NCBI RefSeq assembly: GCF_010993955.1
Contig: NZ_WIXL01000001.1
Location: forward strand, 97,317-161,316
Direction of reading: 5' to 3'
Source: Oceanobacillus halotolerans
Lineage (GTDB): Bacteria; Bacillota; Bacilli; Bacillales; Amphibacillaceae
Length of the DNA stretch: 64,000 nt
Below the pieces are notes generated by a model. That model ran no database searches and was not told the DNA's origin. It saw only the letters and a program-made list of their open reading frames with translations. This document shows, one piece after another, positions 4,653 through 35,985 of the stretch (positions within the stretch are counted from its first letter, which is position 1; every line of letters begins with the position of its first letter). Position numbers and translations under genes: made by a program.

Positions 4653-5858
4653 TTGGGTTATTACAATCAGCATTATCCACCAAATCCACATCGCAAGAAA
4701 AAACGTAACTGGATTGTCCCAACCTTAACTGGTGTTGTAATAGGAATTGTATTTACATTATTAATTGGTTCAAGTATTTTTCCAGATAATTGGATAAACC
4801 AAACAGGCAATTCGTCTGAAGAGAACCAGATCGGACAAAATGAGACTGGAGGAACAACAAATCCTGTCAGTGTGGATGTCACATCACAAATAACAGATAT
4901 AGTTGAAGCGGTGGCTCCAGCTGTTGTCGGGGTTGTCAATATTCAACAACAATCTAGCTTTTGGGAGCAACAAGAGGGTAGTGAAGCAGGAACTGGCTCT
5001 GGTGTCATTTATAAACGGGATAATGGTTATGCCTATGTGGTAACGAACCATCATGTGATTGAAGGTGCCGATACGATTGAAGTGGTCCTTTCAAATGAAA
5101 CACATATTGAAGCAGAACTGCTAGGAAGTGATTTGTTCTCTGATTTAGCCGTATTACGAATGGATGCAACGGAAGTCCAGCAAGTGATTGAAATGGGAAG
5201 TTCTGATAATGTAAAAGTTGGAGAACCAGCTGTCGCAATTGGGAATCCCTTAGGACTTATGTTTTCTGGATCTGTCACACAGGGTGTTATTAGTGGGAAA
5301 AAACGGACTATTCCGCAAGACTTTAATTTGGATGGACGTGCAGATTGGCAAGCTGAAGTCATCCAAACAGATGCTGCGATTAACCCAGGGAATAGTGGTG
5401 GTGCTCTCATTAATATAAATGGACAACTTATTGGAATTAACTCTATGAAAATTAATCAGGCTGCTGTTGAAGGAATTGGCTTTGCTATCCCAATCGATAC
5501 GGCTAGACCAATTATTCAAGAATTGGAAGAAACAGGTGAAGTGACACGTGCTTATTTAGGTGTTGAAATTTACTCTTTAGAGGAGGTACCACAGGCTGAG
5601 TGGCGGGATACGTTAAATCTCCCCCGTGATGTTGATGGTGGTGTTTATGTATGGAGTGTTGAACCGTTATCACCAGCAGATGAAGCAGGTCTACAACAAT
5701 TAGATGTGATTACTGAATTGGATGGTACCGAAGTGGACAATATGATTGATTTACGTAAAATCTTGTACCAAGAGAAGGAAGTTGGCGAAGATGTTGTCGT
5801 TACATTTTATCGAGATGGCGAGCGACAGGAAACAACAATAACGCTTGGTACGCAATAA
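4653..5858 (+). CDS. htrC: HtrA/DegP-type membrane-anchored serine protease
   Basis: Surface quality-control protease of 401 residues. A short cytoplasmic basic N-terminus (HRKKKRNW) is followed by a transmembrane helix (about 20-42), a Ser/Thr/Asn-rich linker, a trypsin-like domain and one C-terminal PDZ domain (about 300-400). The catalytic triad is visible: His in VTNHHVIEGAD (near 132), Asp in LFSDLAVLRM (near 165) and Ser in NPGNSGGALI (near 249). The start is a TTG placed about nine bases behind AAGGGGG. The position after walJ matches htrC (yycK) of B. subtilis; the exact HtrA paralogue is inferred from synteny. A strong terminator follows at 5868. Confidence 0.93.
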   Translation: MGYYNQHYPPNPHRKKKRNWIVPTLTGVVIGIVFTLLIGSSIFPDNWINQTGNSSEENQIGQNETGGTTNPVSVDVTSQITDIVEAVAPAVVGVVNIQQQSSFWEQQEGSEAGTGSGVIYKRDNGYAYVVTNHHVIEGADTIEVVLSNETHIEAELLGSDLFSDLAVLRMDATEVQQVIEMGSSDNVKVGEPAVAIGNPLGLMFSGSVTQGVISGKKRTIPQDFNLDGRADWQAEVIQTDAAINPGNSGGALININGQLIGINSMKINQAAVEGIGFAIPIDTARPIIQELEETGEVTRAYLGVEIYSLEEVPQAEWRDTLNLPRDVDGGVYVWSVEPLSPADEAGLQQLDVITELDGTEVDNMIDLRKILYQEKEVGEDVVVTFYRDGERQETTITLGTQ

Positions 5859-5867
5859 TAAGTAGAG

Positions 5868-5904
5868 AAAGCTACTTTTCCACAACCTGAAAAGTAGCTT
5901 TTTT
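5868..5904 (+). terminator. Rho-independent terminator after the HtrA gene
   Basis: A 13-bp stem (AAAGCTACTTTTC pairing with GAAAAGTAGCTTT) with an 8-base loop, followed by a T-run, ten bases after the stop codon. Confidence 0.9.
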
Positions 5905-5915
5905 CTGCAAAAAAA

Positions 5916-6048
5916 TGTGTATAAGTCACAAAGTTATACACATTCAGTGGATAACCTGTTAAGAAATGCTATATATAGTAGGAAATATTTGTTCTATCAC
6001 AAAACTAAGTACGAACATTTGTGCATATGTGGATAAAGTTGTGGATAT
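5916..6048. promoter_or_regulatory. DnaA-box cluster
   Basis: Six matches or near matches to the DnaA 9-mer TTATNCACA lie in 133 bases. TGTGTATAA (5916-5924), TTATACACA (5934-5942) and TGTGGATAA (6028-6036) fit the consensus exactly on one strand or the other. AGTGGATAA (5946-5954), TGTGCATAT (6020-6028) and TGTGGATAT (6040-6048) have one mismatch. The stretch is non-coding, between the HtrA terminator and a convergent gene. In B. subtilis, DnaA-box clusters outside oriC, including one in the yydA (rlmH)/yycS neighbourhood as I recall, help restrain initiation; equivalence is inferred from sequence and location. Confidence 0.75.
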
Positions 6049-6060
6049 GTTTATGGATGA

Positions 6061-6438
6061 TTAACCTGAGCCTGTTTTTCCTGGTACGTGTTGCCAGATA
6101 AGTAATAAGAGAATGACCATGACAATATCCAGTCTTGCTTCAAATAGAAATGCCAACAAACCTTGTTGTAAAAGAATTGGCAGTTTCGTTAAGTAGAGTG
6201 CTCCAAACATAATGAGGATTAATGGTGCAGTGGCCAGTTTAATATATAATCTACTGATAATAAGTGCTCCACAAGTAAGCTCAGCTATGGCAACAAGGAA
6301 TAAGGTAGATTCTGGAAAAGGTAATCCTAAGCTAATAAACGTTCCTTTAAAATCAGGTACAATCAGCTTGAGCATACCAGATGTAATAAATACGTAGCCC
6401 ACAGCATAACAGATCCATGTGGATAGATGCATCTTCAT
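6061..6438 (-). CDS. DoxX-like integral membrane protein
   Basis: Small membrane protein (about 126 residues) with four hydrophobic helices, of the DoxX/MauE-like type. The first helix region contains YVFITSGMLKL, followed by PDFKGTFISLGLPFPE, a typical DoxX arrangement. Members are associated with quinone or redox partner functions, but no activity can be assigned here. An upstream in-frame start would give 147 residues. The ATG at 6438 is preferred because GGAGGG lies about ten bases ahead and the hydrophobic domain begins soon after. The stop codon directly abuts the DnaA-box cluster, and the gene is convergent with the HtrA gene. Confidence 0.72.
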   Translation of the reverse strand: MKMHLSTWICYAVGYVFITSGMLKLIVPDFKGTFISLGLPFPESTLFLVAIAELTCGALIISRLYIKLATAPLILIMFGALYLTKLPILLQQGLLAFLFEARLDIVMVILLLLIWQHVPGKTGSG

Positions 6439-6603
6439 GTAATTAATTCCCTCCAATCCATTCACTTGTTCTATCCTATGCATGGTTGTGGACAAAGTTG
6501 ACAAGCAATTTTAACTGGGAAACATTTTGTAGCTCATTTGATTGCGTGAAGTTTAAAATAAGCTTATAATTTCTCATAGACTAAAATAAAGGAAGTGCCA
6601 CAT

Positions 6604-19962: not shown

Positions 19963-20095
19963 GGTCATCCCCTTTTGTATGTTATCGATAATATTTATTC
20001 AATTTTTTGGTGAAATATTAGTTTGTTTTAGGAGATATAGTTGGTTTTTGGTAAACTAACAACGATGAATCGTAATTAAAGGACGTGTGTTGACG

Positions 20096-20575
20096 TTGAA
20101 AATAGCTGTTGTGGCAGTTGGTAAGTTAAAAGAAAAATATTTGAAACAAGGCATTCAGGAATATGTGAAGCGGCTAGGTGCCTATGCGAAGATCGATATA
20201 AAAGAAGTAGCGGATGAAAAAGCACCAGAAAATATGAGCCAAGCTGAAATGAAGGAAGTAAAAAACAAAGAAGGAGAACGAATTCTCGCTAATATAAGTC
20301 AAGATACATATGTCATTACCTTGGAAATAAATGGAAGAATGTTAACATCAGAACAATTTGCAGCTAAAATGGATGAGTTAGCCACCTATGGAAAAAGTAA
20401 AATTGCGTTTGTGATTGGTGGCTCATTAGGTTTGAGTGAAGAAGTCCGTAAGCGGAGTAATCTGGCATTGTCCTTTTCCAAAATGACATTTCCACACCAA
20501 GTTATGCGGTTGGTTTTGTTAGAGCAGGTTTATCGGGGGTTTCGGATTAATCGGGGTGAACCTTATCACAAATAG
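20096..20575 (+). CDS. rlmH: 23S rRNA (pseudouridine1915-N3)-methyltransferase RlmH
   Basis: SPOUT-class methyltransferase that methylates pseudouridine 1915 of 23S rRNA in the assembled ribosome. Conserved segments are [12 protein letters not shown] at the N-terminus, the SAM-binding knot [10 protein letters not shown] (about 100-110) and the C-terminal [20 protein letters not shown] and [10 protein letters not shown]. Several in-frame starts exist (GTG 20087, TTG 20090, TTG 20096); 20096 gives exactly 159 residues, the usual length, and aligns with the typical family N-terminus. The 3' end (TTATCACAAATAG) corresponds to the site used by staphylococcal SCC elements, and a defence island begins right after it. 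Confidence 0.96.
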
Positions 20576-21786: not shown

Positions 21787-23634
21787 ATGTACATTTCGAA
21801 GATGTCTATTAAAAATTATCGTAATTTTGGCAATATACCATTTGAAATGAAGTTGAAGAAATTTACAACAATAATTGGTTCGAATAATGTTGGTAAAACA
21901 AATTTACTAGAATCCATTGGATTGATATTAAGCCAAGATATAACTATGTTTAGGAAAAGAATATTGCAGGTTGAAGATATTAATTATGCAACTAGATTAA
22001 AATTTAAACAAGATATACTAAATCAATCAATACCATTTGATAAACTTGAATTCCCAGAGGTAAAAGTCCAGTTAACATTTGAAGGGATGGATAATAAGCA
22101 ATTATCTGTTGTGGGTGATTGGTTTTCAACTAAAGCAATGGATAAGGCTAAATTAACCTATGTATTCAAACCAACTAATAACTTTGATAAAGAAGCATGG
22201 GTTACAAAACAGAGGGAAAATATTAAACAACTTATGAGCGAAAGAAAGGGAATAAAACAGGAAGACCTTTTAAAATTTATTGAATTCCCAATTAAAAGTT
22301 ATCATTACATAATTTACGGAGGAAATGACCGTACTAATCGTGTTGATCCATATTTCCTTAGTATGTTGAAGTTAGAACTATTAGATGCTATTCGAGACGC
22401 AAAACGGGAGTTAATTGCTAATGGGGATTATAAGTTGCTATACCGAATTTTAAATCAAGGTGAAGAGAATGCATATGAAGATATAAAGGAAGTACTAAGC
22501 GATTTAGATGAGAAGATTAGAGGAAACGATCAACTTAGTGATATTAGAAAAACATTAATTGAACAATTGAATAAGATTTCTTTACAAGGTACAGGAGAAA
22601 ATAATATAGACTTTCACTTTTCAACGCTTGAAACGGGCGATATTTTAAAGAAACTAAGTTTGATTTATGGCCAAGAACCGATAACTATTGATAGAAATGG
22701 ACTGGGCAGGAATAATCTTTTATACATTTCATTAATACTATCTCGTTTAGCGCCAGAAGAAAACATAGAAACTTGTTTTAGGGTTGTAGGCATTGAGGAA
22801 CCGGAAGCACATCTTCATCCTCACTTACAAAAGCATCTTGCCACAAACATAGAACAGATAAATGCAAAAAGAGATGATTTACAAATCATTTTAACATCAC
22901 ATTCCACTCATATTACAAGTTCACTTAATACAGAAAATATGGCAGTTTTATTTAGAGATGGGTCGGATATTAAAAAGCATTACATAACTGATGGTTTTGA
23001 AGAAAATAAAAAAGGGAAGGAACACAGACGATATCTTGAAAAGTATTTAGATGCCACCAAATCTAGTATGTTTTATGCTCGAAGGATATTGTTAGTAGAA
23101 GGAATTGCGGAACAGATTCTAGTGCCGTTATTATTTAATCTATCTTATGGTAAAACACTAGATAGCATTGGCTGCAATATATTAAACGTGAATGGAGTTG
23201 CTTTTAGACACTTTTTGGAAATTATAAAAAATGGGTACTTCATAAAATGCGTTGTATTAACTGATGGTGACGTGGGTAAGAAAACGGAAAATCGTTCAGT
23301 TAATTTAAAAAATGACTATGAAAAACCCTATAGCACCATAAAAGTTGAGGTTAACAAGGAAACTTTTGAAAAAGAACTTATTGAAGTAAACAAAAGTGGT
23401 TTTGGGAAGGAGATACTACTTAAAGCACTTAACAATACAAGGCCAAATAAAGGGCCAGAATATGCGAAGGAAATAAAAAATAATGAAATTGAAACCGATG
23501 TTTTCTTTGGAATGATAGAAGATTATAAATCAGAATTCGCATTCAACTTAGGTGATGAAATTAAAAATGTAAGTAAAGATGCATTTCAAGTTCCCAAATA
23601 TATTAAGGAAGGTTTTGAATTTATCTTAGATTGA
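21787..23634 (+). CDS. gajA: Gabija component GajA (OLD-family ATPase/TOPRIM nuclease)
   Basis: Protein of 615 residues with an N-terminal ABC-type ATPase and a C-terminal TOPRIM nuclease domain. Walker A is GSNNVGKTN (31-39). The Walker B/D-loop region is GIEEPEAHLHPHLQ (near 334-347), followed by the switch region ILTSHSTHI. The TOPRIM acidic residues are in LLVEGIAEQ (near 434) and VVLTDGDVGK (near 489). In Gabija anti-phage defence GajA forms a tetramer that nicks DNA when nucleotides are depleted by phage. The next gene encodes a UvrD-like helicase, the canonical GajB arrangement. ATG behind GGAGGG; a -10-like TATAAAT lies upstream. The gene is AT-rich relative to the backbone, consistent with transfer. 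Confidence 0.88.
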   Translation: MYISKMSIKNYRNFGNIPFEMKLKKFTTIIGSNNVGKTNLLESIGLILSQDITMFRKRILQVEDINYATRLKFKQDILNQSIPFDKLEFPEVKVQLTFEGMDNKQLSVVGDWFSTKAMDKAKLTYVFKPTNNFDKEAWVTKQRENIKQLMSERKGIKQEDLLKFIEFPIKSYHYIIYGGNDRTNRVDPYFLSMLKLELLDAIRDAKRELIANGDYKLLYRILNQGEENAYEDIKEVLSDLDEKIRGNDQLSDIRKTLIEQLNKISLQGTGENNIDFHFSTLETGDILKKLSLIYGQEPITIDRNGLGRNNLLYISLILSRLAPEENIETCFRVVGIEEPEAHLHPHLQKHLATNIEQINAKRDDLQIILTSHSTHITSSLNTENMAVLFRDGSDIKKHYITDGFEENKKGKEHRRYLEKYLDATKSSMFYARRILLVEGIAEQILVPLLFNLSYGKTLDSIGCNILNVNGVAFRHFLEIIKNGYFIKCVVLTDGDVGKKTENRSVNLKNDYEKPYSTIKVEVNKETFEKELIEVNKSGFGKEILLKALNNTRPNKGPEYAKEIKNNEIETDVFFGMIEDYKSEFAFNLGDEIKNVSKDAFQVPKYIKEGFEFILD

Positions 23635-23696
23635 GATAGTTCATAGACTATCCTGTTGACACTAGTCTATGAATGGAAAGATAAGGAGCGGTGTAA

Positions 23697-25250
23697 ATGG
23701 TAAAAAAATTAAAACCTACTTTGGTTCTTGCGGGACCCGGTGCTGGTAAAACTCATCATATTATAAAGAGAATTAGTGATAAAATACCATTACTGGATTC
23801 AAAAAGATTCCTTGCTGTAATTACATACACAAATGCGGCTGCTCTTGAGATTAAGGAACGACTATCTAAAAAAATTGAAGTGCCGCCAAACGTTTTCATT
23901 GGAACAATTCATAGTTTTTTAGTTCGCTTTTTCCTAAAGCCATTTGGGAAACTGCATGGCTATTTACCGGAAAACGTAATATACAAAGGTGTTAAAATTG
24001 TCGCTGAAGATAAAATCGAAGAAAATAAAATTAAGAGTAATATAGTTCGTAAGGGAGTAGTACCCTATGACAAAATAGTTTCACTTTCGAATAACCTAAT
24101 TGAAAATAAAGTGGTAAGAAACCTTATTTCTCAAAGAATACAGTTTTTGTTTGTAGACGAGTTTCAAGATGCTGATGCAGGGCAGTATAAAATTTTTGAG
24201 CAAATTAGAATTGCGGGTTCAACGGAGATGTATTTTGTAGGGGACCCAGAACAGAGTATAATGTCATTTCAAAACAAAGGGCGCAAAATACCTACAATGG
24301 ATAAAAGAGCAATTTCAAAGGCAATTAATAGTCGTATGATAAATACTGAGTACTTATATGGGAATCACCGCTCAAGTAAACCAATTATAGATTTTATAAA
24401 TAATTTTCATACCTCTATTAATCAAAGATATTCCAACGATAGAAATAGGGCTCAAACTAAAGTAACCTTCATTTCAGTAGCCAAAGATATAGGTGAAATA
24501 ATTGAACAATTTAATTTGCTTTGTAATGATAGGGCTTATTGTGAAAGTCGACCTAAACGAAGGTTTTTCTTAGCATACGAGGGTAATACTTATAAACCCG
24601 TCGAAAGTGAATTTGGGTTAATTAAAAAAGAGGATAAAGACTCCGTTGATATAAATTTTTTACAAGAGAGTTCCAAATTCATTTGTGAGGTGCTAAATAA
24701 AGGGAAAAATACAATTATTGATGAAATGGAAATAGATAACTTAAAATATAGACAACTTTGTTTGAAGTTAATTAATAGTATAAGAGAAAATCCATTTATG
24801 AACAGCAAGGATTTAATTAATAACATTAAATTCCTTTTTAAGTATGACCCATATAGTCTTGTTCATAGCAAAGTAAAACATAGCCCAGAAGAAATTGCAG
24901 AGGATTTCCTTAAAAAAGTTAATTTTGAAATGAACTATAACAATAATAAAGAGAGTGAGGATTTTTGTCTTACTATTCATAAAGCAAAAGGATTACAGGC
25001 TGATGCAGTCTTAATAATCGCAAAGACACAAAATGAGTTGAAAAAATGGTTGGAACAAGATGAACAAAAAAGGGCATTGGACAAAAAAGATACTTGTAGG
25101 ATTGGTTATGTTGGATTTAGCCGTGCGAAAAAGTTTTTGTGTATTGCTTGTTTGGAGGATATAGATGATAGTTTGAAGAAACAATTAACTAATCTTAATG
25201 TAAATATGATACCAGTTAAACAGAAGGTTAATGCAGGAGTTGGACACTAA
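23697..25250 (+). CDS. gajB: Gabija component GajB (UvrD/Rep-like SF1 helicase)
   Basis: Superfamily-1 helicase of 517 residues that associates with GajA. Motifs in order: Walker A GPGAGKTHH (13-21), motif Ia ITYTNAAALEI, motif II VDEFQDADAGQY (near 153-164), motif III GDPEQSI (near 181), motif IV region YGNHRSSKPI, motif V TIHKAKGLQADAV (near 425) and motif VI YVGFSRAKKF (near 470). All catalytic motifs look intact. It follows gajA by 62 bases with its own GGAGCGGTG-type ribosome site and ends in a terminator, so gajA-gajB is a two-gene operon. Length fits GajB (about 490-500 residues). Confidence 0.88.
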   Translation: MVKKLKPTLVLAGPGAGKTHHIIKRISDKIPLLDSKRFLAVITYTNAAALEIKERLSKKIEVPPNVFIGTIHSFLVRFFLKPFGKLHGYLPENVIYKGVKIVAEDKIEENKIKSNIVRKGVVPYDKIVSLSNNLIENKVVRNLISQRIQFLFVDEFQDADAGQYKIFEQIRIAGSTEMYFVGDPEQSIMSFQNKGRKIPTMDKRAISKAINSRMINTEYLYGNHRSSKPIIDFINNFHTSINQRYSNDRNRAQTKVTFISVAKDIGEIIEQFNLLCNDRAYCESRPKRRFFLAYEGNTYKPVESEFGLIKKEDKDSVDINFLQESSKFICEVLNKGKNTIIDEMEIDNLKYRQLCLKLINSIRENPFMNSKDLINNIKFLFKYDPYSLVHSKVKHSPEEIAEDFLKKVNFEMNYNNNKESEDFCLTIHKAKGLQADAVLIIAKTQNELKKWLEQDEQKRALDKKDTCRIGYVGFSRAKKFLCIACLEDIDDSLKKQLTNLNVNMIPVKQKVNAGVGH

Positions 25251-25821: not shown

Positions 25822-27117
25822 TTAAAAGATTATTTCCTTCAATTTTTTTACTATATTCCATTCTTCTTCCTTGGTGTATATTCTTCCATTAAGGTTAATA
25901 GTAGATATATTTAGATTTGTATCCGATTCTATATAAAAAGAGTAAACGTCAGAGACAGCCGCTTCATATTCAGGATACAGTAAAATAATTCTAGGTTTTT
26001 GATATTTATGGTAATAACCAAACATTTGGTAAATATCCTTATCACTGACACCTTTTCTTGGCTGATCTTGTACTAATTTTTTGTACTTTGTATCGATAAT
26101 TACTTGCACACCGTTTTCATTTTCAATCGAGATATCTGGTTGTAAGTTAAAACATCCTTTATTCAATTGATTATAAATAAGATGATTCCCGCTTTTTTGT
26201 GTATAAACTTTACTGTGCACTAAAATTTCATTAGAATATTCTTTGATTAACTCTGATATATAGTCTTGATAAACAGTATTCATATCTATATTAAAGATAA
26301 ACACATCATTCTCGTTATTACCTCTGAAGTCAATGGATTGGTTTAGTATATAGAACCTTGCAAAGTTCAATAAATTCTCATAATCAGCCAAAAGCCGGTC
26401 ATGCTTAACTAGGGTAAATGTTGATCTGCTTATATTTATATCACTGACATCTGATAATTTTAATAAAATTTGTTTTGCAATCATCTTGTTTTGTGGCCAT
26501 ACTGTATTTCTACTCATATCTTTTACGACAAATTTAAAGATTTGGTTGACTATATTATCTTCAGTATAATTATCAAATTCACTATACATTTTTAGATTTA
26601 ATGGATTTTTTATTATATTTTTACTAACCAATATCTTTCCTTTTATAAAATTAGAGTTTTCCTCCTCTCTGACATATGTTCTATATAAACCCCGCAGTAT
26701 TTTTAGTGAAAGGTTTTGCAAAAAGAGATTAATAAAAAAATCCAGAATCATTCCTCTAGATACATCAAAATTGTTAAAGTTAATGTTATTATTGGGAACC
26801 TTCAATGCTTTGTTAATCATATAATATAAATTTCTATATATTTCTGTTTTAGTATCATCATTGATTTTTACGTTAGCATGATTATATATTTTAGGTAATA
26901 TTTCTATAAGGATATCTTCTCTTAACTTGATTACCCCAACAAAATTCTTTATATGAATCCCTTCTAGGTCAGTCTTTAATACATGTGAGTAATTACTTGA
27001 AATTAAATGGTTGAGTTCGTATAGGCTGTCATAATTAAATGGTGTTTCTACTTTTTTCATTATCTCTTTGTAAGGGAGATATGAATATTCAAAAGTTGTT
27101 ATAATTTTCATTTGCAT
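25822..27117 (-). CDS. McrC-like restriction endonuclease subunit (LlaJI type)
   Basis: Nuclease partner of the McrB-like GTPase/ATPase encoded just upstream. About 431 residues. The C-terminal half shows a PD-(D/E)xK nuclease core: LQPDISIENENGVQVIIDTKYKK read as PD at about 322, then D-T-K some 18 residues later, followed by DIYQMFGYYH, a typical McrC arrangement. The N-terminal ~200 residues would contact McrB and DNA. Its first ATG overlaps the mcrB stop (TGATG), so the two are coupled; a second ATG at 27111 is equally well spaced from AAGGG. With two cytosine methyltransferases nearby, this resembles the R subunits of LlaJI rather than a stand-alone McrBC. Confidence 0.85.
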   Translation of the reverse strand: MQMKIITTFEYSYLPYKEIMKKVETPFNYDSLYELNHLISSNYSHVLKTDLEGIHIKNFVGVIKLREDILIEILPKIYNHANVKINDDTKTEIYRNLYYMINKALKVPNNNINFNNFDVSRGMILDFFINLFLQNLSLKILRGLYRTYVREEENSNFIKGKILVSKNIIKNPLNLKMYSEFDNYTEDNIVNQIFKFVVKDMSRNTVWPQNKMIAKQILLKLSDVSDINISRSTFTLVKHDRLLADYENLLNFARFYILNQSIDFRGNNENDVFIFNIDMNTVYQDYISELIKEYSNEILVHSKVYTQKSGNHLIYNQLNKGCFNLQPDISIENENGVQVIIDTKYKKLVQDQPRKGVSDKDIYQMFGYYHKYQKPRIILLYPEYEAAVSDVYSFYIESDTNLNISTINLNGRIYTKEEEWNIVKKLKEIIF

Positions 27118-28679
27118 CAACCCTTAGTTGCTATTTGTTTAAGAGTTTCTATTAATTGGTCATCAGAGATATCGTAATTAATAGAGAATGACAAATTTTG
27201 TCCTTCATCTATTGTAAGGTTACCTAATAGAGAAGTAATTTCGGCTGGGTTTGTATAAAAGTATTCTTGGAGTAACGGAAGTATTTGATAAACCCATATA
27301 TGTTTTAAATCATTTGTAATTTTGTCCTCAGGTGTATCCAATAGACTGAAGAAATAACTATGGCCAATAATATGCTCTTTATCAATAGAACTTTTAATCT
27401 TATTATTAATTACCTGTACTGCATTAATGGCAGTTAATATTAATTCATTTGTAGTGTTTAATAATGAGAAATCAGGGGTGATTTCAAAGAAAGTGAACCT
27501 TCTCCTTAGTGCAATGTCGATTAATGCAATAGATCTATCAGAGGTATTCATTGTTCCAATAATATATAAATTATTTGGTACCGCAAATGAGTTATTTGAA
27601 TAAGGTAACTTTACTACTGTCTCTTCATGCTGATTAAGCCTTTTGGTTTTTTCAATGAGTGTAATTAATTCCCCAAAAATTTTAGATATATTTCCACGAT
27701 TTATTTCGTCTATAATCAAACCGTATTTAAGATCGGGATTTTTCTTTGCCTCATTACATAATTTTAGAAATATGCCATCCTGAACAAAATATTGTAATTG
27801 CCCAGTAGAATCATTTACCTTCGCTGTAATTCCTTCAACAAATTGTTCATAGGAATATGATTGGTGGAAAGTAATCATTTCACTGTAATCAAAAACATCT
27901 TTTAATTGATTTGTGTAATACGTTTTCCCAGTACCCGGAGGTCCATAGAGTATTAAATTTGGGTTGTGATCAAGGAGTTCTATTATTTTTGTTATTTTTT
28001 GGTTTTGGTACAAACTCTGCTTTTCCTTTATTATTGGTGATAAACCATCAGTAACATTAACATGTGTAGGATTTACTTTTTTGCTTACCGATAGCCCCTT
28101 ATAAGCGGTTAAATTGTATTTTTGTTCATCTGATTCTTTAATACCTAATACAAGGTATTTTAGTTGTTTTCTGTATTTTAGAAAGATAATATAGTCACCA
28201 GTATATAATTGCTTTCTAAAATCAGTGAATTTATTAGAATCCTCCTCAATATAAGAAATCTCCACTTGTTGAGAATTATCTCCTCTTCTACTCCTTGCAG
28301 TTGTTGTAAAGCATTCTAGACCCGTATCATTTTCTTCTATTGAGTTTCCCTTTAGATAGTTTATGTTATTTGATGTTATTGTAATGGGTAATTCAAGAAT
28401 GAATCTTCTTTTAAAAGAGTTATCTTTATCTTGATTTTCAAGATAATTAAAATTATGTAAATACGGGAATATATCCATTTCACGAGAAGTAAGTGCAATA
28501 TGAGTTTGATTTGCTGAAGAACTATGTGTAATTGTATTCGTGGTTGCTAACTTTTTGATCAGTATTGCGTCAAAAGTTTCACTTAAATCTTCATGGTTGA
28601 TATTAAGATCGCTGCTATATAATTTTTGATCTTTAATTATTGTTTCAATGGGCTCTAAGGCGTTATCAAAAGCCGACAT
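27117..28679 (-). CDS. McrB-like AAA+ NTPase restriction subunit (LlaJI type)
   Basis: Motor subunit of 520 residues. The N-terminal ~230 residues are a variable, presumably DNA-recognition region. The AAA+ domain has Walker A LYGPPGTGKTYY (near 240-252), Walker B GLIIDEINRGNISKIFGELI (near 316-335, with the McrB-family NRGN after the acid), NTSDRS and an arginine cluster DIALRRRFTFFEI. Family members use GTP to translocate DNA and activate the McrC nuclease. The ATG at 28679 lies eight bases behind AAGGAG; the GTG at 28688 is less likely. It diverges from the regulator-methyltransferase operon with 142 bases between, so both halves of the system share one control region. Confidence 0.87.
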   Translation of the reverse strand: MSAFDNALEPIETIIKDQKLYSSDLNINHEDLSETFDAILIKKLATTNTITHSSSANQTHIALTSREMDIFPYLHNFNYLENQDKDNSFKRRFILELPITITSNNINYLKGNSIEENDTGLECFTTTARSRRGDNSQQVEISYIEEDSNKFTDFRKQLYTGDYIIFLKYRKQLKYLVLGIKESDEQKYNLTAYKGLSVSKKVNPTHVNVTDGLSPIIKEKQSLYQNQKITKIIELLDHNPNLILYGPPGTGKTYYTNQLKDVFDYSEMITFHQSYSYEQFVEGITAKVNDSTGQLQYFVQDGIFLKLCNEAKKNPDLKYGLIIDEINRGNISKIFGELITLIEKTKRLNQHEETVVKLPYSNNSFAVPNNLYIIGTMNTSDRSIALIDIALRRRFTFFEITPDFSLLNTTNELILTAINAVQVINNKIKSSIDKEHIIGHSYFFSLLDTPEDKITNDLKHIWVYQILPLLQEYFYTNPAEITSLLGNLTIDEGQNLSFSINYDISDDQLIETLKQIATKG

Positions 28680-28821
28680 TACGTACACTCCTTAAAATTT
28701 ATTTTATTTTAAGGATATCACAAATAATAAAATCTATTAAATGTAAGTGCTAATCATTTATACCCTGATAAAAACATGATATAATATTTATGCAAACAAA
28801 TGATCCTATAAGGGGATGAAA

Positions 28822-29034
28822 ATGGTGAAAAAAGTAGGGAGGCCCTCTGGGAGAAGGAAAACTAGTAAGATTGAGATTTTATTAGAACCTGCTACAAAAG
28901 AAAAATTTATGAGATGCCTACAAGAAGAAGGAAAGTGCGCATCAACCGAAATTGGATATTGGATTAATGATTATATAAGAGAGCGTGAAAAAATTACATA
29001 TAAAAGTGTTAACGGGGGAAATAAAAATGAATAA
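28822..29034 (+). CDS. Putative ribbon-helix-helix DNA-binding regulator of the RM locus
   Basis: Small basic protein, about 70 residues. A positively charged N-terminus (KKVGRPSGRRKTSK) leads into a likely beta strand (KIEILLEPA) and two helices (TKEKFMRCLQEEG, STEIGYWINDYIRER), the pattern of a ribbon-helix-helix domain. It probably binds DNA and may control the divergent restriction and methyltransferase promoters, as controller proteins do in many RM systems; this is inference from size, fold pattern and position. The ATG at 28822 follows AAGGGG by six bases. The 3' end overlaps the first methyltransferase by eight bases, so the two are co-translated. Confidence 0.65.
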   Translation: MVKKVGRPSGRRKTSKIEILLEPATKEKFMRCLQEEGKCASTEIGYWINDYIREREKITYKSVNGGNKNE

Positions 29035-29971
29035 AGTAGTTTCTTTGTTTAGTGGTTGTGGCGGATTGGATTATGGTTTTATGAAGGCTGGTTTTGATGT
29101 TATTTGGGCAAATGATTCTGATAAGTTTGCTGTCCAAACATATAAAGAAAACTTTGGAGATCACATAGTTTTAGATGATATACAGGATATTGATATTGAC
29201 TCAATTCCTAATCCAGATTTATTGTTAGCCGGGTTTCCTTGTCAACCTTTTAGTATGATGGGGAGTAAGTTAGGATTTGATGACGTAAGAGGGACATTGT
29301 TTTTTCATATAGCAAAAATAATAGACAAAAAGAAGCCAGAAATTGTAGTTTTGGAAAATGTAAGGACACTTAGAACCCATGATGGTGGGAAAACTTATAA
29401 AGTAATTATGAATATACTTGAGAATGAATTGGGATACAAAGTTTTTGATCAAGTGTTAAATAGTGCTGATTTTGGTGTTCCTCAAAAAAGAAATAGAACT
29501 TTTATAGTTGGTTTCAAGGACCATTCAGTAGAATATGAATTCCCTAAACCAGTTCCTTTAAATAATACTATGCAAGATTTATTAGAAAAAAATGTTCCAG
29601 AAAAGTACTTTTTATCTGATAGAATTTTAAAAACTATTCTTTCACATGGAACTAAGAATTATAGAGCAAATCCCGAAATTGACTTAAAGGTTGCTAGACC
29701 TCTATGTGCCACAATGGCAAAAATGCATCGTGCTAGTCAAGATAATTATGTAACTGATAATGGAAAGGTTAGAAGGTTAACCCCTAGGGAATGTGCAAGG
29801 CTCCAAGGGTTTCCAGATGACTTTAAAATAGAGGTATCGGATTCACAAGCATATAAGCAATTTGGTAATGCAGTTACTGTCAATGTAGCAAATTACGTTG
29901 CTAACAGTATTATTAATGCAATCAAAAATAATACAAATAATGAGGTGCAGGAGATTGCAACCACTTTATGA
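29027..29971 (+). CDS. DNA (cytosine-5) methyltransferase 1 of the LlaJI-like system
   Basis: C5-cytosine methyltransferase of 314 residues that would protect one strand or half of the recognition site. Motifs in order: I SLFSGCGGLDYGF (5-17), IV catalytic GFPCQPFSMMG (near 73), VI LENVRTL (near 110), VIII QKRNRTFIVG (near 153), IX RRLTPRECARLQGFP and X FGNAVTVNVA. The target-recognition region between VIII and IX is short (~85 residues). The ATG at 29027 lies eight bases behind GGGGG; a longer frame from 28985 would overlap the regulator without a better signal. The 3' end overlaps the second methyltransferase. Confidence 0.92.
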   Translation: MNKVVSLFSGCGGLDYGFMKAGFDVIWANDSDKFAVQTYKENFGDHIVLDDIQDIDIDSIPNPDLLLAGFPCQPFSMMGSKLGFDDVRGTLFFHIAKIIDKKKPEIVVLENVRTLRTHDGGKTYKVIMNILENELGYKVFDQVLNSADFGVPQKRNRTFIVGFKDHSVEYEFPKPVPLNNTMQDLLEKNVPEKYFLSDRILKTILSHGTKNYRANPEIDLKVARPLCATMAKMHRASQDNYVTDNGKVRRLTPRECARLQGFPDDFKIEVSDSQAYKQFGNAVTVNVANYVANSIINAIKNNTNNEVQEIATTL

Positions 29972-31502
29972 TATAGAGAGTAAGGAAAGAAGGGATTATA
30001 AAACATCCCTAAATGAAATAAAAACACTTCTTTCATTGGCTTTTGATAATAATAGACCTAAAGAACAATTAGTGTTAGAGGAAGTCTATAATTATGTATA
30101 TGAAAGAATTGGTATTATACAAGATGCTAATAATAAAAATGAGGTTGAAGAACTAAAAGCATTGATTAATAAATATATGGAATTTGATTATGAGACTTTC
30201 TTTAACCTAATTATTGAACTATCAAATAATTGTTGTGTAGAGGACTCTCCAACATGTGGAGATTGCCCAATACGTAATTATTGTGAACAGTACAGAACAA
30301 AAAAGGTTATGGAACAAAAAAACAGTGATAATCCTTTGTTAATTGACTTATTTTCAGGGGCTGGGGGTATGTCGTTAGGTTTTAAACATGCGGGATTCAA
30401 TATTGCCTTAGCAAATGATGTTGAAAAGTGCTGTATTGATACTTATACACATAACCACCCAGAAGTTCCTATAGAAAGTGTAGTACTAGATGATATAAAA
30501 AATCTATTAACTTATGCTGAACAGTTACTTCCGAATAAAGAAATTGATCTTATTATTGGTGGCCCCCCTTGCCAAGGATTTAGTAATGCTAATCGACAAC
30601 GTTTGATCGATGATCCAAGGAATAAACTTTACAAGCATTTTGTAGAGTTTGTAAATTTAATAAAGCCTAACTTTTTTGTTATGGAAAACGTTCGTGGCAT
30701 GCAGTCAATATCTGATCAGATTATAGAGGACTTTGAACAATTAGGTTATAATGTCCATTGTGAAATTTTAAATGCTGCGGACTTTGGAGTTCCCCAAAAT
30801 AGGGAGAGAATAATATTCATTGGCAATTTAATAGGAGTAGATAGTAAACAGATTTTTTCAGAAATACGTCAAAAGGCTAAAGAAATAGATACACATGTTT
30901 TAAAGGATGCCTTATATGGTTTGAGAGAACTTAAGGCATCAACAATTAAGAATTCAACTGAACTTGATACTGAGAAATCTGGACGTAAAATTGATAAGAA
31001 CAATTACTACGGAAAAGAAAATGAATATATTAACCTAATTAATAATAGTAAAAAATCGAAGTTTGTCTTCAATCATAAGGCCCGTTATAATAACGATAGA
31101 GATATTGAAATTTTTGGTAGACTGAATCAAGGGGATAAATCTGATGATCCCAAAATTGCAGATATAATGCCATATAAAAATAGAAACCACATATTTAAGG
31201 ATAAATACTTTAAACTTCAAAATGATAAGTTTTCCAAAACTATTACTGCACATATGAAATTTGATTGTAATATGTATATTCATCCAACCCAAGCAAGAGG
31301 ATTAACGCCAAGAGAGGCTGCAAGGGTACAGTCCTTCCCAGATATTTATTTTTTTAAAGGACCATATACTAAGACTTATATGCAAGTAGGTAATTCAGTG
31401 CCTCCGTTAATGGGGAGAGGTATTGCTAAAGTTATTAAAGAATATATAGATAAGTTTAAAGAGGATAAGTCACTGAATGAGAAGTCTAGTGTAGGAGTGT
31501 AA
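29940..31502 (+). CDS. DNA (cytosine-5) methyltransferase 2 with N-terminal iron-sulfur-type extension
   Basis: Protein of about 520 residues. The C-terminal ~390 residues are a complete C5 methyltransferase: motif I IDLFSGAGGMSLGF (near 135), catalytic GGPPCQGFSNANR (near 207), MENVRGM (near 247), QNRERIIFIG, then ARGLTPREAARVQSFP and MQVGNSVPP at the end. The N-terminal ~120 residues are unusual: a helical region ending in CVEDSPTCGDCPIRNYC, which has exactly the Cx6Cx2Cx5C spacing of the endonuclease III/MutY [4Fe-4S] loop, but no glycosylase HhH-GPD core is visible. The start is uncertain: ATG 29940 overlaps methyltransferase 1 by 32 bases and lacks a clear ribosome site, and TTG 29955 is an alternative. 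A paired second methyltransferase is typical of LlaJI and BsuMI systems. Confidence 0.88.
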   Translation: MRCRRLQPLYDIESKERRDYKTSLNEIKTLLSLAFDNNRPKEQLVLEEVYNYVYERIGIIQDANNKNEVEELKALINKYMEFDYETFFNLIIELSNNCCVEDSPTCGDCPIRNYCEQYRTKKVMEQKNSDNPLLIDLFSGAGGMSLGFKHAGFNIALANDVEKCCIDTYTHNHPEVPIESVVLDDIKNLLTYAEQLLPNKEIDLIIGGPPCQGFSNANRQRLIDDPRNKLYKHFVEFVNLIKPNFFVMENVRGMQSISDQIIEDFEQLGYNVHCEILNAADFGVPQNRERIIFIGNLIGVDSKQIFSEIRQKAKEIDTHVLKDALYGLRELKASTIKNSTELDTEKSGRKIDKNNYYGKENEYINLINNSKKSKFVFNHKARYNNDRDIEIFGRLNQGDKSDDPKIADIMPYKNRNHIFKDKYFKLQNDKFSKTITAHMKFDCNMYIHPTQARGLTPREAARVQSFPDIYFFKGPYTKTYMQVGNSVPPLMGRGIAKVIKEYIDKFKEDKSLNEKSSVGV

Positions 31503-34956: not shown

Positions 34957-35985
34957 ATGATGACTGTTTGGTTATTTCGTGCAGGAAAACAGGGAGAATT
35001 TGAAAATAAGTATCTTGATGATGAAAGAGTCTATCTTACGTGGGATGACCTCAATATGGACCTAAAAGAGATTGAATCAAAGGAAAGTCTATACAAACGA
35101 TTAGTTGAGCATTATGATTTAGATAAAGAGAAAACGGCAATAAACTGGGCTTCACAAATTTGGCCAATAGCCCATGCGATGGTACAAGGAGATTTGGTGA
35201 TCTTACCTTCAAAGTTTAATCGCACCATTCATATAGGTGAAGTGACCGGAGATTATGTATATGATGAATCACTTGGCAGTCCTTATTATCATTATCGTAA
35301 TGTAAAATGGATTGCAAAAGATATACCAAGGGATCGGTTTGATCAAGATATCTTATATTCACTAGGTGCGTTTATGACAGTTTGTAAAATACATAGAAAT
35401 AATGCGGAAGAACGTATCAGAGAAATGCGTAAAAATAATTGGTATGTACCAAAAAATAAAAATGTGAAGGAACTAGTGGAGGAGACGGAAGATACCGTTT
35501 CGATTGATTTAGAAGAATATATTTATGATCAAATCTCAGAAAGAATTATTCAACGGTTTAAAGGTCATAAAATGGAAAATTTGGTGGAGGAAATTCTGAA
35601 AGCAAAAGGATTTACAACGTATCGAAGTCCAGAAGGTGCAGATCATGGTGTCGATATACTGGCCGCTTCGAACACATTAGGTTTTGGAGATCCAAAAATC
35701 TGTGTGCAAGTAAAGACTTCGGATACACCTCTTGATCGACCGACATTAGATCAATTAATAGGTACCATGAGCAATTATAGTGCAGACTTTGGATTGCTAG
35801 TTTCCTGGAGCGGTTTTAAATCATCTGTCACCAAAGAAATTCCTAAGCAATTCTTTAAGGTTCGTCTTTGGGATTCCAAAACGATTATTCAACAGATATT
35901 TGAAAACTATGAAAAACTGAGTGATGAAATAAAAAAAGAGATTCCTATCAAAAGAGTTTGGATGTTGGATAGTGAAGTGGAATAA
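34957..35985 (+). CDS. Mrr-like restriction endonuclease (probable type IV or DNA-damage-type nuclease)
   Basis: Protein of 342 residues. The C-terminal ~150 residues form an Mrr_cat nuclease core: MENLVEEILKAKGFTTYRSP supplies the first helix and glutamate, HGVDILAA the catalytic aspartate, and CVQVKTSD the QxK motif, followed by a helix in LIGTMSNYSADFGLLVSWSG. The N-terminal ~150 residues (VWLFRAGKQGEFE ... GDLVILPSK) look like a modified-base or nucleic-acid recognition domain. Mrr enzymes cut methylated or foreign DNA. ATG with AAAAAAGGAG upstream; no cognate methyltransferase is adjacent, which favours a type IV role. The start may be the second ATG. Confidence 0.82.
   Translation: MMTVWLFRAGKQGEFENKYLDDERVYLTWDDLNMDLKEIESKESLYKRLVEHYDLDKEKTAINWASQIWPIAHAMVQGDLVILPSKFNRTIHIGEVTGDYVYDESLGSPYYHYRNVKWIAKDIPRDRFDQDILYSLGAFMTVCKIHRNNAEERIREMRKNNWYVPKNKNVKELVEETEDTVSIDLEEYIYDQISERIIQRFKGHKMENLVEEILKAKGFTTYRSPEGADHGVDILAASNTLGFGDPKICVQVKTSDTPLDRPTLDQLIGTMSNYSADFGLLVSWSGFKSSVTKEIPKQFFKVRLWDSKTIIQQIFENYEKLSDEIKKEIPIKRVWMLDSEVE

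Follow-up and report, generated by a model that had tools for sequence, protein, structure and literature searches.

What keeps a dense group of DnaA boxes in place between two convergent genes outside the replication origin? We addressed this question in a window of 64 kb, by which we mean the whole stretch of DNA analysed (bases 97317-161316 of contig 1 in a draft genome of 3.3 Mb). The window starts inside walK and continues with yycH, yycI, walJ, htrA, the box cluster, a DoxX-like gene, and an ABC transporter. The closest named relatives of its HtrA belong to Virgibacillus, Oceanobacillus, and Ornithinibacillus, with identities of up to 74%, which we read as a placement in Amphibacillaceae. 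The dnaA gene resides on the same contig (55043-56392), so that approximately 47 kb lie between the cluster and dnaA/oriC, and the encoded DnaA has a normal C-terminal DNA-binding domain. A sequence-only reading of this DNA had reported three exact and three one-mismatch DnaA boxes in 133 non-coding bp (5916-6048), flanked by the htrA terminator and a convergent gene. All six boxes were located (Table 1); the interval from the htrA stop (5858) to the doxX-like open reading frame that converges on it (6061-6504, minus strand) contains no gene. A seventh, box-like site within the terminator is probably incidental. We consider it probable that the cluster is the ortholog of the Bacillus subtilis yydA/yyzF DnaA-box cluster, an oriC-proximal array that most likely serves as a sink for DnaA.

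Table 1. Features of the locus, in coordinates of the 64-kb window
Feature	Position	Strand	Remark
htrA/yycK serine protease gene	4653-5858	+	constant upstream neighbor of the cluster in its own family
htrA intrinsic terminator hairpin, 11-bp stem, loop of 10	5869-5900	+	read from the sequence; upstream border of the cluster
One-mismatch site TTTTCCACA	5876-5884		inside the htrA terminator hairpin
DnaA box TTATACACA, exact	5916-5924	-	
DnaA box TTATACACA, exact	5934-5942	+	left half of the conserved convergent pair
DnaA box TTATCCACT, one mismatch	5946-5954	-	right half of the convergent pair, 3 bp apart
Conserved non-box spacer CTATATATAGTAG	5969-5981		site of the yyzF "IY(M/L)V" codons in relatives
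Conserved non-box stretch ACAAAACTAAGTACGAACATT	5999-6019		CGAACA nearly invariant in 48 aligned sequences
Near-invariant 24-mer GAACATTTGTGCATATGTGGATAA	6013-6036		
DnaA box ATATGCACA, one mismatch	6020-6028	-	one-base overlap with the next box
DnaA box TTATCCACA, exact	6028-6036	-	
DnaA box ATATCCACA, one mismatch	6040-6048	-	3 bp past the preceding box
DoxX-like gene (Pfam DoxX)	6061-6504	-	convergent with htrA; neighbor in 41 of 75 loci, others differ
rlmH	20087-20575	+	downstream neighbor of the cluster in other families; here 14 kb away

A conserved two-armed array behind htrA

We scored clusters with two points for every exact box and one point for every one-mismatch box within 133 bp. 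The sequence-only reading had allowed that random places of the genome might be equally dense in boxes; the cluster scores 9, whereas no other independent place in the window exceeds 3. The highest score in any 133 bp of 200 dinucleotide-shuffled windows was usually 3 and rose once to 6. Single boxes are not enriched, as TTATNCACA occurs 194 times genome-wide versus 181 times for the reversed pattern, and sites with at most one mismatch number 83 in the window against 103 expected. The signal therefore resides in the clustering of the TTATNCACA-like boxes outside oriC, not in the individual boxes. An accumulation of AT-rich 9-mers by chance would fit the frequency of single boxes in the genome, but its probability is negligible: no shuffle attained the score of the cluster, and dozens of genera share the arrangement, a conservation that already refutes this reading.

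The suggestion to look for boxes at the same locus in relatives proved fruitful. Of 80 named Amphibacillaceae and Halobacillaceae loci, 76 have a cluster with a score of at least 6 no further than 900 bp from the htrA stop; the median score is 11, compared with a median of 3 for the best-scoring place in the rest of each locus. As for the remaining four loci, two stop at a contig end (L093 and L147), and the other two (L133 and L135) have the cluster further downstream, with the conserved motif in L133 at approximately 1.3 kb. Among the first 60 related genera, 50 of the 53 usable loci reach a score of at least 6. In nearly every usable locus, the best cluster is found directly behind htrA (own family) or in the gap between yyzF and rlmH (other families). 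The counts of absence leave out L055 and four loci at contig ends (L043, L048, L093, and L147). One family genome with htrA (L306, G017:C26) has no DnaA-box cluster within the 5 kb examined, which seems to be a natural loss. Across the class Bacilli, a cluster with a score of at least 5 near rlmH is present in about 37 of 63 distinct sampled loci and missing from about 26, in a sample biased towards close RlmH relatives; it also occurs near rlmH in loci devoid of htrA or yyzF (L253, L287, and L288). The apparent loss in L306 and the roughly 26 class Bacilli loci without a cluster indicate that it is not essential everywhere. The proximity to the origin is shared as well: in 51 genomes, a distance of 27-54 kb (median 35 kb) separates dnaA from walJ, which itself is approximately 2 kb away from the cluster. 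Two further observations came from the same loci. Second DnaA-box clusters occur several kb downstream in L038 (5527-5594), L044 (5319-5430), and L045 (8679-8762), some of them just past an ABC transporter gene. The htrA region of the locus L098 is Virgibacillus-like and includes the same cluster; the title of this record, "Roseburia sp. 1XD42-34", is probably a misnomer.

The alignment of 48 sequences revealed two arms. The left arm is a convergent pair, TTATNCACA-3 bp-TGTGNATAA, and the right arm, GAACATTTGTGCATATGTGGATAA-3 bp-TGTGGATAA, is a head-to-tail triplet with one overlap; the starts of the pair and the triplet are 84-87 bp apart. At the left box, the sequences hardly differ in the eight specified bases of TTATNCACA yet vary at its free fifth base N, which is the signature predicted by selection for DnaA recognition. 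Between the arms, TCnATATnTnGT and ACAAAA-TAnCTnCGAACA are conserved, too. Of 120 family genomes, 49 contain a single copy of the 19-mer GAACAYTTGTGCATATGTG, which comprises the first 19 bases of GAACATTTGTGCATATGTGGATAA, and none contains two; its reversed control is absent from all 120. The cluster very likely binds DnaA. A LexA-like reading of CGAAC-N4-RTTCC in the spacer and a Spo0A-box reading (TGNCGAA) were both rejected by eye, as neither is kept across Amphibacillaceae.

Retention of the boxes after the loss of yyzF

The B. subtilis site is located "upstream of yydA, spanning yyzF" (Smith and Grossman, PMC4447404). The sequence-only reading had proposed equivalence with this rlmH(yydA)/yyzF cluster, noting a different spacing and order. 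We found yyzF (TIGR04129) over the cut-off in 102 of 120 genomes of the order. In families with yyzF, the cluster is situated at the 3' end of the gene, just upstream of rlmH, and the left box is coding: TTATCCACA specifies Leu-Ser-Thr of the LSTxCxxC motif, which includes the CxxC of YyzF, and the conserved stretch after the left box encodes (A/I)Y(M/L)VAN. A sister family with an intact yyzF (L060 and L299) has the same pair and, 87 bp from the left box, the same TGTGCATATGTGGATAA. The spacer shows moderate homology to its counterpart in the yyzF-bearing sister (median z, 2.9), beating all shuffles in 27 of 52 cases.

The genome studied here lacks yyzF, which is also missing from several other lineages, including at least four losses within families whose other genera keep the gene (f2, f14, f73, and f77). 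A cluster with a score of at least 6 is kept in 12 of the 13 examined loci without an intact yyzF, among which L080 is weak and L308 has a yyzF remnant with a stop. In Halobacillus-group loci, remnants of yyzF are still in frame and begin exactly where the first box does, e.g., LSTACE*CSG*IAYMVANVNST, and Sediminibacillus and Aquibacillus retain only the yyzF end, e.g., EDNSPYLVANIHSS. In the window itself, the match to a yyzF protein remnant was below the shuffled background; the boxes, the spacing, and part of the spacer persist in its own clade.

The intermediates with the order htrA - yyzF - boxes - rlmH, the spacing in the sister family, and the in-frame remnants support the proposed equivalence, placing the cluster at the orthologous position of the B. 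subtilis locus, which itself was taken from PMC4447404. The decay of yyzF and the displacement of rlmH 14 kb downstream explain the different spacing and order. Both clusters are alike in box type, in proximity to oriC, and in their position relative to htrA, yyzF, and rlmH in the intermediates, and they comprise similar numbers of sites (seven in B. subtilis and six here). Unlike the B. subtilis cluster, which lies within an operon, ours sits between convergent genes, with yyzF lost and rlmH far off. The ancestor most likely had the left boxes inside the 3' end of yyzF and the right boxes between yyzF and rlmH. In the lineage of the window, yyzF would then have decayed and other genes would have separated rlmH, while the array would have stayed behind htrA under selection. 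Keeping the cluster where yyzF decayed suggests that the DNA itself serves replication control, and regulatory DNA overlapping a coding end can survive the loss of the gene. The kind of element is already known; the new and useful point, taken up below, is the evolutionary one concerning the target of selection. We found no paper on the retention of this cluster after the loss of yyzF in a literature search covering few subscription papers, so this absence carries little weight.

In staphylococci, rlmH is the insertion gene of SCC elements; the window contains no SCC-like repetition of the 3' end of rlmH. A complete Gabija-type pair (21787-25250) starts approximately 1.2 kb downstream of rlmH, with GajA (E 6e-294) and GajB (E 4e-238) as the best PADLOC matches. 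The segments 25822-31502 and 34957-35985 carry a likely McrBC-like pair, assigned by eye with PADLOC restriction-enzyme matches to one member only. They also encode two C5 DNA methyltransferases, which are adjacent, and a candidate defence protein (PDC-S02) that includes an Mrr-like part. Together with the Gabija genes, these genes constitute a defence island directly after rlmH.

A predicted sink for DnaA

The yydA cluster counts among the eight strong DnaA regions of B. subtilis, with apparent Kd values of 0.16 uM for the ATP form and 0.33 uM for the ADP form (PMC4447404), and DnaA regulates the yyzF operon (PMC8203912; PMC4447404). The clusters outside oriC are ambiguous in B. subtilis, as they combine gene regulation with an apparent titration of DnaA. 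The array could accordingly be thought of as a transcription switch, at which DnaA represses or activates the adjacent gene as it does for yyzF-yydABCD, and the position directly upstream of rlmH in many families would suit such a role. At the present locus, however, yyzF is absent and both neighbors, htrA and doxX, end at the cluster. A promoter scan detected no promoter-like site in the cluster, and an Rfam scan of the window detected no known RNA. Over 75 loci, the downstream neighbors fall into 14 unrelated groups, with a convergent doxX in 41 loci. Regulation of a neighbor is therefore an unlikely reason for the retention of the cluster here, and we regard the transcription switch as quite unlikely. 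The neighbors converge and leave the cluster no adjacent promoter that it could regulate, so that DnaA binding itself appears to be what selection acts on. Evolution has split the two roles at this locus: yyzF decayed several times and rlmH moved, yet the boxes, their orientation, and their spacing stayed, which argues that DnaA binding near oriC is the selected property.

As PMC5295017 and PMC13220808 report from Okumura et al. (2012), deletion of six clusters outside oriC caused early initiation, suggesting sensitivity to free DnaA; the effect is strong only when the six are removed together. By analogy with these accounts, the cluster would titrate DnaA or control the timing of initiation, and titration is rather likely to be the function for which it has been selected. 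The B. subtilis data and the matching set of clusters in the same genome (see below) therefore lead us to predict a DnaA-binding, oriC-proximal sink. We infer that DnaA occupies the cluster and that this occupancy affects initiation. DnaA would oligomerise on the phased boxes, i.e., the convergent pair, the 84-87 bp interval, and the head-to-tail triplet, and would thereby be drawn from oriC. An oriC-proximal cluster would be replicated soon after initiation, so that its copy number would double early, lowering free DnaA and restraining premature re-initiation. It would presumably act together with the clusters upstream of dnaA, at dnaA-dnaN, mnmE, and ywlC, and at tsaD-ydiF. Lying between convergent genes and containing no promoter, the cluster offers a clean test bed for the initiator-titration model in Gram-positive bacteria.

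One feature counts against simple titration. The non-box columns GAACATTTG and ATATnTnGT are conserved, and simple titration needs no such conservation. A composite element akin to datA or DARS of E. coli, in which a second protein on the spacer (ATATnTnGT, CGAACATTTG) and DnaA on the boxes would form a fixed complex and change the nucleotide state or assembly of DnaA instead of simply soaking it up, could account for these strongly conserved positions, for the rigid spacing of 84-87 bp, and for a motif present at most once per genome. We nevertheless hold it to be unlikely, because some of what is conserved in the spacer derives from yyzF codons, homologues of IHF, datA, and DARS are missing from B. 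subtilis (PMC13220808), and no second binding motif could be named. It is fairly unlikely, too, that the cluster represents a Bacillota counterpart of datA/DARS by convergence, that is, a complex of fixed geometry on the convergent pair, the 84-87 bp spacer with a site for a second protein, and the head-to-tail triplet. Such a complex would actively alter DnaA instead of being a passive sink, and the element would have been taken over from the coding part at the end of yyzF and then have outlived that gene. The cluster shares with datA, DARS1, and DARS2 the nature of non-coding DnaA-box clusters outside oriC tuning DnaA availability. However, they are not homologous, and datA needs IHF, which B. 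subtilis lacks. The E. coli type is defined by an IHF/Fis site next to the DnaA boxes and by a catalytic effect on the nucleotide state of DnaA.

The origin question and further clusters

The predicted sink has to be distinguished from a secondary or cryptic replication origin, an alternative raised by the sequence-only reading and suggested by the origin-like box density. DnaA-trios are an origin element (PMC10201434). The cluster and the oriC of the same genome at dnaA-dnaN both contain clustered DnaA boxes, but the latter has six trios in a row (TAATAATAAAAGTAATAA) and an unstable AT-rich stretch. The cluster lacks a run of at least four trios, and its least stable 50-mer is unexceptional, with 2% of the 50-mers in the window being less stable; the least stable 50-mer of the dnaA-dnaN region falls below every 50-mer of the window in stability. 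With neither trios nor an unwinding element beside the boxes, and with a full B. subtilis-type oriC 47 kb away, a secondary origin is very improbable.

The same genome contains clusters matching most of the B. subtilis set in a comparison that left out counterparts of sda and ywcI. They are located upstream of dnaA, between dnaA and dnaN, upstream of mnmE, between a GNAT gene (ywlB-like) and the Sua5/ywlC gene, and between tsaD and ydiF, with one further cluster. The B. subtilis clusters at trmE, ywlC, gcp/ydiF, ywcI, and sda are elements of the same kind as the array behind htrA, three of them with counterparts in this genome, but they occupy different loci, most of them beside promoters. In addition, we observed a dense cluster with no obvious B. 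subtilis counterpart in L033 (2310-2470; G000:C1:432809-432970). It contains four exact boxes and is flanked by a lipoprotein-like gene on one side and a GntR-type regulator on the other, approximately 376 kb from dnaA.
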